Counted from the first letter of the stretch, positions 21,501 to 25,259 are shown. The stretch is 25,420 bases of DNA from a virus (IMGVR_UViG_3300030520_000399:1-25420); one strand, 5' to 3'. Notes: generated by a model not told the origin, from the sequence alone. Program-made: numbers and translations.

Positions 21501-21710
21501 ACGGTTGACAACGCAACGCCTGTCACGAGCACCAACTTCGCGGGAACCGCCATGGTGCAAACATCCACGATGACCATCGGCGCGCGAGCGGGCGGCAGCG
21601 TACCCATCAACGCCGAAGTGGCGTTCGTCGTGATCGTGTCGGGCCTCCTAAGCAGCACGGACCTTTCTGAGATGCAGACGTGGGCCACGGGCATCTGGGG
21701 GGCAGTGTAA
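18552..21710 (+). CDS. multidomain receptor-binding protein (tail fibre/spike) with esterase-like domain
   Basis: This encodes 1052 residues from a GTG one base after the upstream stop. Domains in order: a basic N-terminus (1-20); an IPT/TIG-like fold (about 30-105, VTSFSPSQGASTGGTVVTVV); an SGNH/sialate-esterase-like domain with block-I-like TGQSLSVG (about 116-123, candidate nucleophile Ser), GEADA (about 327-331) and a C-terminal HLTATGYQQNGE (about 415-426). The usual Asp three residues before that His is absent (TGQH), so activity is uncertain. Two FCCH-like repeats follow (about 504-575 and 578-646), then a second Ig-like segment (about 735-820) and a LamG-like jelly-roll (about 830-1052) ending LSSTDLSEMQTWATGIWG. 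By this architecture it binds, and may deacetylate, cell-surface polysaccharide. Its TAA stop lies at the edge of a mobile element. Confidence 0.75.
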   Translation: MTTRRRTGRSARSHGRSASSSNPSPPASAPVVTSFSPSQGASTGGTVVTVVGTGFTNTATSTLGAVTFVSSTQIRITTSGGSGNIGWTVTASGYTSATKLFFYIPTLLQLSGLISTGQSLSVGDDSTPASTTPAVANVMLHDSQESTYGWYWGSTLPVSIGTYMFADPANGYVYQVTNAGTGITAGTQPTWPTTINSTVTDGNGVVFKCAVAANAPLNPAAFSASTLSFTPLVAPERPLQATNQQNLYPTNLGGECTSIAAANQFYALTQAPMAVTDVGIGGSTVSGISPGGGNNSWVSMEFEIQQINALAQGQSKSYGVPFFMCTNGEADAQSSTFVTDSLAYYNDIQSLVTTTTSQSFLPLAIISQQGTTPPAVTGPPISALGQLFLSRVYGSTPLILSGPKYQYPYTFTTGQHLTATGYQQNGEKSAEAALTVLKGGSWLPLAPNGITVSGSVVTIAFDVQFSPLEFNTTLFGQPHQTAPLSLVWANSYGFEALQGIANIIGATKASPIVYQTAQPHGLTTGNVVSACNVMGNAKANSQQNSGNAAVTVIDSTHFSMPYSGVAAYQSGGQVRLAVIGATNASPIVIQTGTPHGLATNSVVAIDSVLGNTAANGNWEVTVVDSAHFSLNGSTGNGAWTAAGGVFQCLPITSAAISGSTVQLTLPAAPGNGVSVAAALTPDDILDYAGVLPTRRCANLTDSDPFVGSITGLAAPNYVCTFLDPLPYSIPQLILSVSPVSMTNTPSSPQLVTVNVNRTVRPNGATVSGVTVDGVSLTGITTPTAATIQGYVPAGTYTGGTGNVVVTWSDATTATLTNGFAFVSYGPLLFFYGRLLAYLDGRSSVAQSAGVVTAWNDLSPFAQNFPAVGSPTYNASGSTPTAQPTVSVSSGNYLEVTSFNFSSSPTNGFSVIVLLKTSSTGSAEIVASGQGADPELRISSTQTTHPEIIKNSGTALIWGSATLGAWHVYAGGTTGALSGNDAFVTVDNATPVTSTNFAGTAMVQTSTMTIGARAGGSVPINAEVAFVVIVSGLLSSTDLSEMQTWATGIWGAV

Positions 21711-21853
21711 TCAACCCCGTCCTAAAGGACGGAGCTTTGCAGATCAACTCCATGGGACCGACCCACTTCAACATTGTCCACGTACGGCCGGATTACATCG
21801 GCCCGGCGAGCTATTACCCTCGCCGCGTTGACGTCGGCGTCCGCGGTGTGACG
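21710..21853 (-). ncRNA. possible solo omega RNA (guide RNA) of the short element
   Basis: In TnpB systems the guide-RNA scaffold is made from the tnpB 3' end and right end, and the guide is the flanking sequence. The short element retains just these parts. The terminal hairpin is CCGTCC-TAAA-GGACGG (21717-21732). The predicted guide is the minus strand of about 21687-21706, within the end of the fibre gene. Expression and compatibility with the neighbouring TnpB are unproven. Confidence 0.35.
21722..21853 (-). pseudogene. tnpB: C-terminal remnant of a tnpB
   Basis: Read on the minus strand, this frame gives HTADADVNAARVIARR and ends in SSVL plus TAG, with the stop inside the right-end hairpin. 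The intact TnpB next door has CEHADLNAAKVLLQRF and ends SSAL plus TAG in the equivalent place. The match includes the third RuvC aspartate in the D-x-NAA motif. The segment after that Asp is shorter (37 against 49 residues) and quite different in sequence, so it comes from another TnpB lineage rather than from recent deletion of the neighbour. Upstream the frame runs directly into left-end sequence. Confidence 0.75.
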
Positions 21854-21900
21854 GGGCTTCCTCCCCGTCCTCAAGGAGGGGGTTTCCGCCCCGAAGATCG

Positions 21901-22182
21901 ATGAGCCTGGAGGTCATCATCGCGGCCATCGCCGTCATGCTCACTGGACTGGGGATGCTCGGAGGCGGCATCCTCTTTCTCGTGAAGCTCGGGGGCTACG
22001 TCGCCCGCATGCAGGATTCGGCTTCGACGGTTCAGAAGGCACTCGACCGTCTCGACCGCATCCCGGCGATCGAGCAGCACCTGAGCATGCAAGATGACCG
22101 GCTAGACCGCATCGAGAACCGAACCAACTCCGCTCACGCTCACGCGATGCGCGCAGAGTTCGTGTCAACCCATGGAGAGTAG
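21901..22182 (+). CDS. small membrane protein with coiled-coil tail, lysis-region
   Basis: This encodes 93 residues: one N-terminal membrane segment (about 3-30, VIIAAIAVMLTGLGMLGGGILFL) followed by a helical coiled-coil (about 37-80, VQKALDRLDRIPAIEQHLSMQDDRLDRIENR). In phages such proteins near the tail fibre are often holin- or spanin-like. No cysteine or lipobox is present. The ATG is abutted by the left end of the short mobile element, which leaves only a weak ribosome site (GAAG at 21893-21896). If the element is removed in silico, GGGGGG from the end of the fibre gene comes to lie a few bases upstream. The stop is followed two bases later by the right end of the larger element. Confidence 0.65.
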   Translation: MSLEVIIAAIAVMLTGLGMLGGGILFLVKLGGYVARMQDSASTVQKALDRLDRIPAIEQHLSMQDDRLDRIENRTNSAHAHAMRAEFVSTHGE

Positions 22183-22186
22183 GGTA

Positions 22187-22340
22187 ATCAACCCCGCCCT
22201 AAAGGGCGGAGCTTTCGGAGGTACGTCGAAACGTACGCAGCCGTTTCCTGGGTCGCAGGCTGGGCAATCCCGAAGCCTCACCAGGCAGCACCGAGCGATT
22301 CGCACGGTGTTCAAATCGTTGGAGCAGCACCTTTGCTGCA
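22187..22340 (-). ncRNA. predicted omega RNA scaffold at the tnpB 3' end
   Basis: By family knowledge the omega RNA is processed from the last ~100-150 bases of tnpB and the right end, followed by a guide from the flank. Seen here are the terminal hairpin at 22194-22209 and the tnpB 3' region. The expected guide is the minus strand of about 22164-22183, inside the end of the 93-residue membrane-protein gene. The 5' limit given is approximate. Confidence 0.45.
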
Positions 22341-23398
22341 TTGAGGTCCGCATGCTCGCAGACACCGCAACCCGTGCACTCGAAGACGGCTTGAGCCTTC
22401 CGGCTCTCGGCGTCGACGTGTCCGCATGCGTGGCAGGTCTGCGAGCTGTAGGCAGCGGGGACTTCGACGACGGCGCCACCGAGCGCCGCGGTCTTGTACC
22501 TCAACATCTCGACGAGACGTCCCCAGCCGGCGCCGAGGATGCTCCTCGCGAGGCCGCGGTTCGCCTTCACCATATTTCCGATCTGAAGCCTCTCGACGAC
22601 GACGACCGCGTGGCTCTTGCTCAGCCTCGTCGAGATTTCATGGAGCACGTGGTCGCGCTGCCGGCGCACCTTGCGGTGCAAAACGGCGACGCGGTGCTTG
22701 GCCTTCTCCCTGTTCTTGGATCCCTTCTTCTTACGGCTGACGTTTCGCTGGGCGCGGGCGAGCCGCTTCGCGGTCGCGTCCAGGTGCTTCGGGTTCTCGA
22801 CGACGTTGCCGTCGCTGTCGGCGATCACGTTGACGATGCCGCGATCGAGCGCGACGACGGGCGCGATGCGCGGAGCGGGCTCGGCGACATCCGCCTCGTA
22901 GACGAGGCTCGCGAACCACTGCCCGGCCTCCTCGCGGAGCGTGCACGTCTTCGGTGTGCCGGTCGGCTCGCGGTGGACGACGGCGCGCAGATTGCCCAGC
23001 TTCGGGAAGCGGACGTTCGAGCCGTCCAGTCTCCAAGCCTTCGGATGCGGCTCGCAGAAGCCCAGACCGTCGCGACCCTTGCGCTTGAAACGCGGGGCGC
23101 GGGCGAGCTTCTTGAAACAACGCGACCACGCCCGGTCGAGCTCCACAAGAAGCTGCGCGCACACGTTGCGCGGGACGTCGGCCAGCCACGGCAACTCGGC
23201 GCGCAATTCGGTCAGCTCGTTGATCTGATCGAAGGCCGTCGGGTAGACGCGTTCGTCTCTCGGCCTCGCATACCCGAGCTTCCGTTGCTCGAGCGCGAGG
23301 TTCCAGAGGAAGCGCAGCGACCCATCCCACGCGGACATGCGCGCCACCTGAGCCTCGCTCGGATAGACACGGAAGCGAAACGCCTTCACACGCTTCAC
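22199..23398 (-). CDS. tnpB: TnpB, RNA-guided RuvC nuclease of IS200/IS605 type
   Basis: This encodes 399 residues, a typical TnpB length. The start is a GTG preceded by AAGGAGG with 6-base spacing. The N-terminal part has the family's start (FRFRVYPSEAQVARM). RuvC motif I is VVALDRGIVN (Asp about 185), motif II VVVERLQIGNM (Glu about 269) and motif III HADLNAA (Asp about 351). A zinc finger lies between II and III (C322, C325, C341, C344: CHACG and CTGCG). All catalytic and metal residues are present, so the protein looks active. By family knowledge TnpB uses an omega RNA from the element's right end to cut DNA matching the guide next to a target-adjacent motif, which keeps the element at its site. 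The frame ends in SSAL inside the right-end hairpin, as is common in IS1341-type elements. Confidence 0.92.
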   Translation of the reverse strand: MKRVKAFRFRVYPSEAQVARMSAWDGSLRFLWNLALEQRKLGYARPRDERVYPTAFDQINELTELRAELPWLADVPRNVCAQLLVELDRAWSRCFKKLARAPRFKRKGRDGLGFCEPHPKAWRLDGSNVRFPKLGNLRAVVHREPTGTPKTCTLREEAGQWFASLVYEADVAEPAPRIAPVVALDRGIVNVIADSDGNVVENPKHLDATAKRLARAQRNVSRKKKGSKNREKAKHRVAVLHRKVRRQRDHVLHEISTRLSKSHAVVVVERLQIGNMVKANRGLARSILGAGWGRLVEMLRYKTAALGGAVVEVPAAYSSQTCHACGHVDAESRKAQAVFECTGCGVCEHADLNAAKVLLQRFEHRANRSVLPGEASGLPSLRPRKRLRTFRRTSESSAL

Positions 23399-23532
23399 GC
23401 TTTGCCTCCTTTCCGAGGTGGGCCATGCGGTCCGGGCGTGTTCAGCGCCGCGGGCCGCACTTCTCCTAGCACGAAATCGAAACGCGGGTTCCTGCCCGCC
23501 CTGAAGAACGGGGTTTCCCCCGCGGAGATACG
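23399..23532 (-). other. left end and leader of the tnpB element, non-coding
   Basis: There is no gene in these 134 bases. On the minus strand they hold, in order, the left-end hairpin region, a short A/T-richer stretch near 23465-23485 (TTTCGATTTCGTG) that may include promoter elements, and the tnpB ribosome site AAGGAGG. No clear -35/-10 pair can be defended. Confidence 0.6.
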
Positions 23533-23748
23533 ATGAAAGAAGCGACTGCGTTTGCCACGACGGTGATCATCGGAGCGCTTGCCGCGCTCTTCGTGTGGAA
23601 GGGAGAGAGCGGCTTCGCCATGACCTGCATCGTGGCGCTGTTGCCCGCCGCGGGCGGCTCTGCGGCGATCGCAGCCGGCAAGCTCGCCCCCTCCGCAGCC
23701 GATCCAACAGCGACCATGACGACCACGAAAGTAGAGGTGAAGCCATGA
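23533..23748 (+). CDS. putative holin (two membrane segments)
   Basis: This encodes 71 residues with two hydrophobic segments (FATTVIIGALAALFVW about 7-22; MTCIVALLPAAGGSAAIAAG about 30-49) and a polar Thr-rich tail. Size and layout fit a class II holin, the protein that permeabilises the inner membrane at lysis; the Rz1-like lipoprotein directly downstream supports this. The ATG abuts the left end of the tnpB element, with GGAG about 5 bases upstream now inside element sequence. Without the element, GGAG from the preceding gene would take that place. The stop overlaps the next start (ATGA). Sequence alone cannot prove holin function. Confidence 0.5.
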   Translation: MKEATAFATTVIIGALAALFVWKGESGFAMTCIVALLPAAGGSAAIAAGKLAPSAADPTATMTTTKVEVKP

Positions 23749-24323: not shown

Positions 24324-24560
24324 GTGTCCCCTCTCGGCGCTCTCGAGACGCTCCTCGCGCAAGCCCGCGAGGAAGGGCGGCGCGCGGGCGTCGCGGAGGG
24401 GGAGGCCCGACACCACCACGACCCTCTGCGGCGATGGCGTCACGCGCTGCCCCAATCCGTACGTCTGCACCCTCTACGACCGCTGCGAGGCGCCGGGGCC
24501 GGCTCCTACGTCGTGGGGATCGCGACTCGCGGACGCTGGAAAGGACCGATAGAAGCATGA
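24324..24560 (+). CDS. chimeric small gene (duplicated N-terminus joined to a foreign tail)
   Basis: This gives 78 residues from a GTG one base after the preceding stop. Residues 2-28 (LETLLAQAREEGRRAGVAEGEAR within) are nearly identical to the N-terminus of the gene at 25017. After base 24409 the similarity stops and this frame becomes His/Arg/Gly-rich, while the +1 frame becomes a convincing cysteine-rich protein. The stop overlaps the next ATG (ATGA), so the frame may be translated and coupled to its neighbour. I regard it as a recombination product whose second half is out of its original frame. Whether it is functional is unknown. Confidence 0.4.
   Translation: MSPLGALETLLAQAREEGRRAGVAEGEARHHHDPLRRWRHALPQSVRLHPLRPLRGAGAGSYVVGIATRGRWKGPIEA
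24327..24406 (+). repeat. 80-bp direct repeat, copy 1
   Basis: 78 of 80 bases are identical to 25026-25105, with the same reading frame. It contains the perfect inverted repeat TCCTCGCG/CGCGAGGA with a 6-base loop. Confidence 0.9.
24410..24552 (+). pseudogene. 3' fragment of a cysteine-rich protein gene
   Basis: The frame ending in TAG at 24550-24552 reads DTTTTLCGDGVTRCPNPYV, then CTLYDRCEAPGPAPTSWG, and has higher G/C at third positions than the overlapping 24324 frame. Four cysteines in about 22 residues suggest a small exported, disulfide-bonded domain. Its 5' part, presumably with start and signal peptide, is missing: directly upstream is the duplicated 80-bp segment in another frame. 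I infer that the original gene was truncated by that duplication. Confidence 0.5.
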
Positions 24561-25016: not shown

Positions 25017-25259
25017 ATGCCGTCCTCCCCTCTCGACGCCCTCGAGACGCTCCTCGCGCAAGCCCGCGAGGAAGGGCGGCGCGCGGGCGTCGCGGAGGGG
25101 GAGGCGCGCATGCGGCACGCGGTCGTGAGCTACCTGCGCTACGAGGCGCGAGGCGTCACGCTGCGCTACCGCCGGCTGCTGTTGCAGCACGCGATCTGGG
25201 TGGAGGACTACCGAGGTGCGGCGACCGAGAGGCCGACCGTGCCGGACGTGGGAGAGTGA
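25017..25259 (+). CDS. small helical protein, parent copy of the duplicated N-terminus
   Basis: This encodes 80 residues. Residues 4-30 (SPLDALETLLAQAREEGRRA then GVAEGEARM) are the segment found again at 24324. Here the frame continues smoothly into a helical, tyrosine/arginine-rich part (YLRYEARGVTLRYRRLLLQH, about 40-59) and an acidic end, so this is the intact version. The ribosome site is weak (AGGA). The stop overlaps the next ATG (TGATG at 25257-25261). Function not recognised; the whole protein is likely one or two long helices. Confidence 0.6.
   Translation: MPSSPLDALETLLAQAREEGRRAGVAEGEARMRHAVVSYLRYEARGVTLRYRRLLLQHAIWVEDYRGAATERPTVPDVGE
25026..25105 (+). repeat. 80-bp direct repeat, copy 2
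   Basis: Partner of 24327-24406 with two mismatches; located within the intact gene at 25017-25259. Confidence 0.9.

Follow-up and report, generated by a model that had tools for sequence, protein, structure and literature searches.

A short IS200/IS605-type element in a phage genome retains a predicted guide RNA scaffold of a TnpB subfamily other than that of its neighbour

Introduction

The virus record IMGVR_UViG_3300030520_000399:1-25420 (a whole IMG/VR record of 25,420 bases, possibly a fragment, called the window here) contains two same-orientation elements of the IS1341 type (IS200/IS605 family) around one gene: a full element with an intact tnpB gene and a short, solo element with only the last codons of such a gene. 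The record is a tailed-phage fragment in which portal and tail-fibre genes are present. A first-pass annotation had proposed that the solo element supplies a second guide to the TnpB of the full one, giving a two-guide arrangement in one phage. This raises the question from which element the solo descends, which TnpB its guide RNA (omega RNA) would fit, and whether it is a non-autonomous mobile element or a remnant.

Results

Anatomy and ancestry of the solo element

The limits of both elements were inferred from their flanks and from the conserved right end (RE) boundary of relatives (GATTAC/GTTTAC/GGTTAC). The solo element consists of the following parts.

21707..21900, minus strand: solo element, 194 bp; left end (LE) 91.7% and 3′ part 91.0% identical to the element L025
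21851..21900, minus strand: LE of the solo element
21722..21850, minus strand: last 42 codons and stop of an L025-type tnpB, with the RuvC-III motif ADADVNAA (tblastn, 83% over 42 aa)
21687..21706, minus strand: predicted guide segment ACTGCCCCCCAGATGCCCGT, taken as the sequence after the conserved GATTAC end

The solo and full elements of the window are 80% identical over 55 nt of the LE and 86% over 43 nt of the RE, and their interiors do not align. A pattern search with the solo interior matched two other contigs. L025 is a complete element; its TnpB is another one, sharing 29% identity with that of the window across 189 aligned residues. Compared with L025, the solo is 91.7% identical over 48 nt of the LE, 91.0% over its final 144 nt and, at the amino acid level, 83% over the 42 codons plus stop. 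Because LE, 3′ part and 42 codons all match L025, the solo is, judged by its sequence, a deletion derivative of an L025-type element and not a decayed copy of its neighbour. Simple decay of a neighbour copy had already been doubted in the first-pass annotation, which had also recognized both ends and about 43 C-terminal tnpB codons; the codons are 42 plus the stop, and they belong to an L025-type tnpB rather than to the neighbour's.

As in palindrome-associated or miniature inverted-repeat transposable elements (PATEs, MITEs), both ends are retained, the core is deleted and a transposase gene is lacking. The deletion joints overlap by 1–2 nt (by inspection). The solo is present as a single copy in the window; a second L025-type solo, on another phage contig (L014), has a different deletion point and keeps 105 nt, of which only about 8 nt lie beyond the stretch from stem 1 to the end (see below).

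Fold of the solo omega-RNA scaffold

Since Rfam, at the gathering threshold, gave no match in the window, the omega RNA was modelled anew.

21707..21811, minus strand: complete L025-type omega-RNA scaffold of the solo, 105 nt (covariance model R1, 147.7 bits, E=3.8e-34; covariation)
21799-21803/21786-21790, minus strand: stem 1
21773-21781/21739-21748, minus strand: stem 2
21762-21766/21752-21756, minus strand: stem 3
21713-21736, minus strand: RE hairpin
21791..21796, minus strand: pseudoknot strand GUAAUC in the stem-1 loop, 6 bp with GAUUAC at 21707-21712, covarying across relatives

The scaffold has the architecture of a TnpB omega RNA, with stem 1, a pseudoknot to the 3′ end, stems 2 and 3 and the RE hairpin, and it finishes at the element boundary. 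That the short element spans the omega-RNA-encoding stretch, as first annotated, was thereby borne out. All of these parts, including the pseudoknot, are intact in the solos of both the window and L014. RNAalifold returned the adopted fold from four non-solo relatives. In a MAFFT alignment of six sequences, 99.4% of the cells were paired and 11 pairs were changed on both sides, versus 1–3 in slid controls. Among 25 relatives, 96.2% of the cells were paired, with a covariation score of 0.635 versus at most 0.117 when slid, in an alignment that was fitted to the model and is thus biased toward it. The pseudoknot pairs change in step across relatives (GTAATC:GATTAC, GTAAAC:GTTTAC, GTAATG:CATTAC and GTCATG:CATGAC).

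Between the solo and L025 there are 13 differences. None of them breaks a pair, where 3.9 breaks would be expected at random (p=0.006), and two-sided compensations number three, against 0.1 expected (p=5e-5). The differences show no bias to third codon positions. The L014 solo has seven differences, none breaking a pair and three compensated. In the alignment of 25 loci (A5), the last six scaffold bases, which form the pseudoknot, are also the RE boundary, so that RNA fold and DNA end are coupled.

Relation of the solo scaffold to the neighbouring TnpB

Two covariance models were built, R1 from four L025-type RNAs with the solos left out, and R2 from seven neighbour-type RNAs with the window sequence left out. 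The counterpart in the full element is as follows.

22184..22317, minus strand: omega-RNA scaffold of the full element, neighbour type, RE hairpin included (R2, 118.3 bits, E=6.7e-30)

With R1, the solo scored 147.7 bits and the full element 37.5 bits, whereas with R2 the full element scored 118.3 bits and the solo 37.4 bits. Bare RE hairpins without a scaffold reached 34–44 bits with R1 and 34–50 bits with R2. As its R2 score lies within this range, the solo does not surpass a bare hairpin as a scaffold of the neighbour type. Neighbour-type scaffolds are also longer by about 40 nt in the interval from stem 2 to the RE hairpin, and their pseudoknot has 4 bp instead of 6 bp. By these scores, the solo scaffold is that of another TnpB subfamily (L025) than the adjoining TnpB. 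For this reason a second guide for the neighbouring TnpB is not supported, and the models lend no support to cross-loading of the solo RNA onto that protein. A scaffold unlike that of the full copy had been named in the first-pass annotation as evidence that would speak against its proposal; the two scaffolds do differ in sequence and in detail, although their general architecture is common to both.

Other short derivatives of the end-family

Further relatives of the solo were sought with its DNA against phage and plasmid records, which gave one 44-nt partial match and no plasmid match, and with a gapped LE-to-RE pattern for further solos, which returned only L014 and L034. The L034 solo (L034:510-2313) has ends of another type, lacks stem 1 and directly adjoins a full tnpA-tnpB element, whose LE starts at the RE end of the solo; the flank at this point is TTTAC, not TCAT. 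Four insertions of about 41–65 nt consist of an RE without LE (L020:5195-5243, L021:401-449 on the minus strand, L022:2594-2638 and L017:1295-1361). They lie immediately 3′ of TCAT at a start codon and finish at the RE boundary; three of them open with GT at the 3′ end of a neighbour-type tnpB. These RE-only insertions look like the smallest mobile units of the family, the RE hairpin perhaps serving as both ends. L026:10566-12055 is a partly gutted element with intact ends, a tnpB in two fragments about 1 kb apart and a tnpA fragment near the LE.

The full element, its TnpB and the insertion sites

The remaining features of the locus are listed below.

22184..23532, minus strand: full IS1341-type element, 1,349 bp; ends homologous to LE/RE of L002-L006 and to the solo
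23482..23532, minus strand: LE of the full element, with hairpin
22199..23398, minus strand: tnpB, 399 aa, GTG start; stop codon within the RE hairpin
22164..22183, minus strand: predicted guide segment CCTACTCTCCATGGGTTGAC, taken as the sequence following the conserved GATTAC end
21901..22182, plus strand: intact 93-aa gene separating the elements, with one hydrophobic segment

The window TnpB scored above the Pfam cut-offs for OrfB_IS605, TNB and HTH (PF01385/PF07282/PF12323), matched the solved ISDra2 TnpB (PDB 8bf8, E=2.9e-42) and is 85% identical in amino acid sequence to that of L004. The RuvC D/E/D motifs and zinc-finger cysteines, reported in the first-pass annotation, were found by inspection. 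With these domains and motifs, subterminal hairpins at both ends and a fixed short target on the 5′ side, and lacking terminal inverted repeats, target duplication and an internal tnpA, the element belongs to the IS1341 group of the IS200/IS605 family. The relatives L004, L006 and L034 carry a divergent Y1 tnpA, and TnpA genes are thus present in relatives that share these ends.

The two elements had rightly been placed in the same orientation around a single gene, at a distance that the exact limits correct from 286 to 283 bp, the length of the 93-aa gene plus one base. This gene had no match in PHROG or Pfam. The location in a phage lysis region is at most plausible, from the small neighbouring proteins with hydrophobic segments, none of which gave a PHROG match.

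The full element is bounded by TTTCAT (23533-23538), which resembles a transposon-adjacent motif (TAM), and by the flank CCTACTCTCC; the solo is bounded by the TAM-like CTCAT (21901-21905) and the flank ACTGCCCCCC. TCAT immediately precedes both elements and, across the end-family, 24 of 28 LEs. On the opposite strand TCAT reads ATGA, and therefore an insertion between genes can spare both, as here: the adjoining genes are unbroken with the elements present or removed. The inferred empty sites, which show no target duplication, read ...GAGTAGG joined to ATGAAAG... for the full element and ...GGGGCAGT joined to ATGAGCC... for the solo; the latter is a stop-start overlap (GTATGA), and the tail protein remains 1,052 residues long.

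On the plus strand, the outer LE ends read GGAGATACG followed by ATG (23518-23535, full element) and GAAGATCG followed by ATG (21890-21903, solo), each resembling a Shine-Dalgarno (SD) site before the start codon of the next gene. They perhaps replace a ribosome-binding site displaced by the insertion. An SD site as a general feature of LE ends was rejected, as it is clear in some LEs only. An open reading frame of at least 60 aa is faced by 16 of 24 LEs, compared with 42% of background ATGA sites (p=0.013).

Discussion

Proposed explanation

We consider it likely that the solo is a PATE/MITE-like, non-autonomous element of the IS200/IS605 family that TnpA could move in trans and whose omega RNA would be of use only to an L025-type TnpB from elsewhere. 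An internal deletion would have fused the LE of an L025-type element to its last 144 nt, leaving ends that TnpA can recognize and a whole omega RNA. The solo and its neighbour may have arrived in this phage separately; alternatively, a whole L025-type copy may have entered and lost its core in place. A Y1 TnpA acting in trans would excise it and insert it 3′ of TCAT. If transcribed, the omega RNA could be loaded by an L025-type TnpB that a co-infecting phage, a prophage or the host provides in trans, and might then direct cleavage of element-lacking alleles (TCAT followed by ACTGCCCCCC...), favouring retention or copying of the element. Supply by another phage is conceivable, because viral contigs held 66 loci with a relative of the L025 TnpB, at 34% identity or more. 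The RE pattern had no match among the 95 and 148 genomes of two GTDB phyla, which thus gave no host lead.

Several findings weigh against this explanation. Neither a TnpA nor an L025-type TnpB was found anywhere in the 25-kb record, and a search limited to the sigma-70 consensus found no promoter-like site. Searches via the portal, the 93-aa gene and the empty-site DNA found no natural vacant allele or sister phage; they returned only L013, which has a 100% identical portal and whose contig stops short of the element region. The empty sites are therefore reconstructions, and the argument for mobility is one from anatomy. When RNAalifold was given no more than three non-solo relatives, it predicted another middle stem, and three pairs of that fold are broken in each solo; a fourth relative in the input restored the adopted fold. 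The L034 solo lacks stem 1 and the four RE-only insertions lack a whole scaffold, so not every derivative retains the entire omega RNA. Finally, the solo and L025 differ at 12 of 105 scaffold positions versus 1 of 39 upstream coding positions (Fisher p=0.19). As change was scarcer in the upstream codons than in the scaffold, the compensatory changes were rejected as proof of selection on the solo after the deletion. The pattern suggests that the substitutions predate a recent deletion, and for this reason they are no evidence of selection acting on the solo. The data show a scaffold that is intact and was constrained in its lineage; selection on the solo itself is not demonstrated by them.

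Alternative explanations

A serious rival, and quite possibly the correct reading, is that a full L025-type element was inserted here and lost its core, leaving the solo as inert debris whose RNA is never made or used. This would account for the single copy, the lack of a promoter-like site, junction overlaps of 1–2 nt, as expected of random deletions, and the existence of scaffold-free derivatives. It explains less well that two independent deletions in the same subfamily, in the window and in L014, both retained the LE and the complete scaffold, and that all pairs of the best-supported fold are intact in both. At the opposite extreme, the solo could be a functional 'guide-only' selfish element, whose RNA is expressed in a phage lacking a cognate TnpB, is loaded by an L025-type TnpB of a co-infecting phage or prophage and cuts vacant alleles, so that it would spread by parasitising the TnpA and TnpB of others; we regard this stronger claim as doubtful.

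The elements might instead be retained because their hairpins or ends act on the phage genes they separate, as antisense RNA, terminator or replacement ribosome-binding site, and not as guide RNA. Each insertion sits precisely at a start codon, the LE ends GGAGATACG and GAAGATCG next to ATG resemble SD sites, and LEs face open reading frames more often than background sites do (p=0.013). Yet the positions at start codons follow from the TCAT target together with selection against gene disruption, a clear SD-like end is confined to some LEs, and the covariation of the pseudoknot would be left unexplained, which makes this reading improbable. The two-guide arrangement proposed at first appears very improbable indeed. 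The common orientation and the spacing of 283 bp would allow tnpB read-through to take in the solo, the terminal GATTAC is identical, the RE hairpin is near-identical and both scaffolds share the plan of stem 1, pseudoknot, stems 2/3 and RE hairpin. Against this stand the cross-model scores at bare-hairpin level for scaffolds of two TnpB subfamilies, the roughly 40 extra nt before the RE hairpin and the 4-bp versus 6-bp pseudoknot of the neighbour type, and the fact that scaffold type tracked TnpB type in the examined elements holding both.

Comparison with known systems

Stand-alone, trans-acting omega RNAs of IscB were reportedly described by Altae-Tran et al. in 2021. Like these, the solo is a guide RNA locus without an adjacent nuclease gene; they belong to the IscB/Cas9 lineage, whereas the solo holds a TnpB-type scaffold within a short element with transposon ends. 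REPINs and repetitive extragenic palindromic (REP) units are very short hairpin elements mobilised in trans by RAYT, a Y1 transposase. They resemble the RE-only insertions of the relatives, but the latter derive from IS605-type right ends and occur in phage genomes.

The PATEs of Haloquadratum walsbyi, especially HqIRS71 and the core-deleted ISHwa23, are transposase-free IS605/IS1341-type derivatives with near-terminal palindromes and no target duplication; they arise by deletion mediated by 19–22-bp repeats, and often only 52-bp ends remain (PMC3119063). The solo is likewise a transposase-free derivative of this type, but its joints overlap by 1–2 nt only, it has kept a complete omega RNA and its host is a phage. 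In the omega RNA of ISDra2 TnpB, a pseudoknot links the scaffold 3′ end to the stem-1 loop; stems 2/3 follow, and the terminal hairpin carries a UUUA tetraloop (PMC10097598). All of these parts recur in the same order in the predicted solo scaffold, a likeness of general plan; unlike ISDra2, the solo has no tnpB. The processed scaffold of AmaTnpB measures 106 nt and its TAM is TCAC, close to the 105 nt and the TCAT flank of the solo; experiments showed that AmaTnpB itself releases it from the AmaTnpB mRNA (PMC10278001). The solo has neither a TnpB nor such an mRNA of its own.

PATEs are thus already known, and a phage PATE that keeps a complete, heterologous TnpB guide scaffold would be a modest novelty, a claim we make with reserve. 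In the literature searched, with incomplete coverage, no phage PATE-like element with a complete TnpB omega RNA of another subfamily beside an intact TnpB was found described.

Ends, nuclease and scaffold as modules

The solo separates modules that are usually treated as one, namely the ends (TnpA recognition), the nuclease (TnpB) and the guide scaffold. Near-identical ends enclose TnpB subfamilies that each have their own scaffold, and a scaffold can outlast its nuclease. The case makes testable the exploitation of TnpB in trans by TnpB-less elements and the specificity between TnpB and scaffold among subfamilies that share ends.

In L002-L006, L018, L023, L025, L030, L034 and L047, near-identical ends surround TnpB subfamilies that are only about 29% identical, and some of these elements share one type of Y1 TnpA. 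The picture is one of interchangeable modules for ends, nuclease and scaffold.

Further observations

L027 and L032 lie on one 38.9-kb contig, both ends of which break within the same neighbour-type tnpB 3′ end. This suggests two identical tnpB copies that broke the assembly. In the window, near-duplicate gene starts (ALETLLAQAREEGRRAGVAEGEA) are found at 24324-24405 and 25018-25108; the first copy enters another frame and resembles a truncated duplicate.

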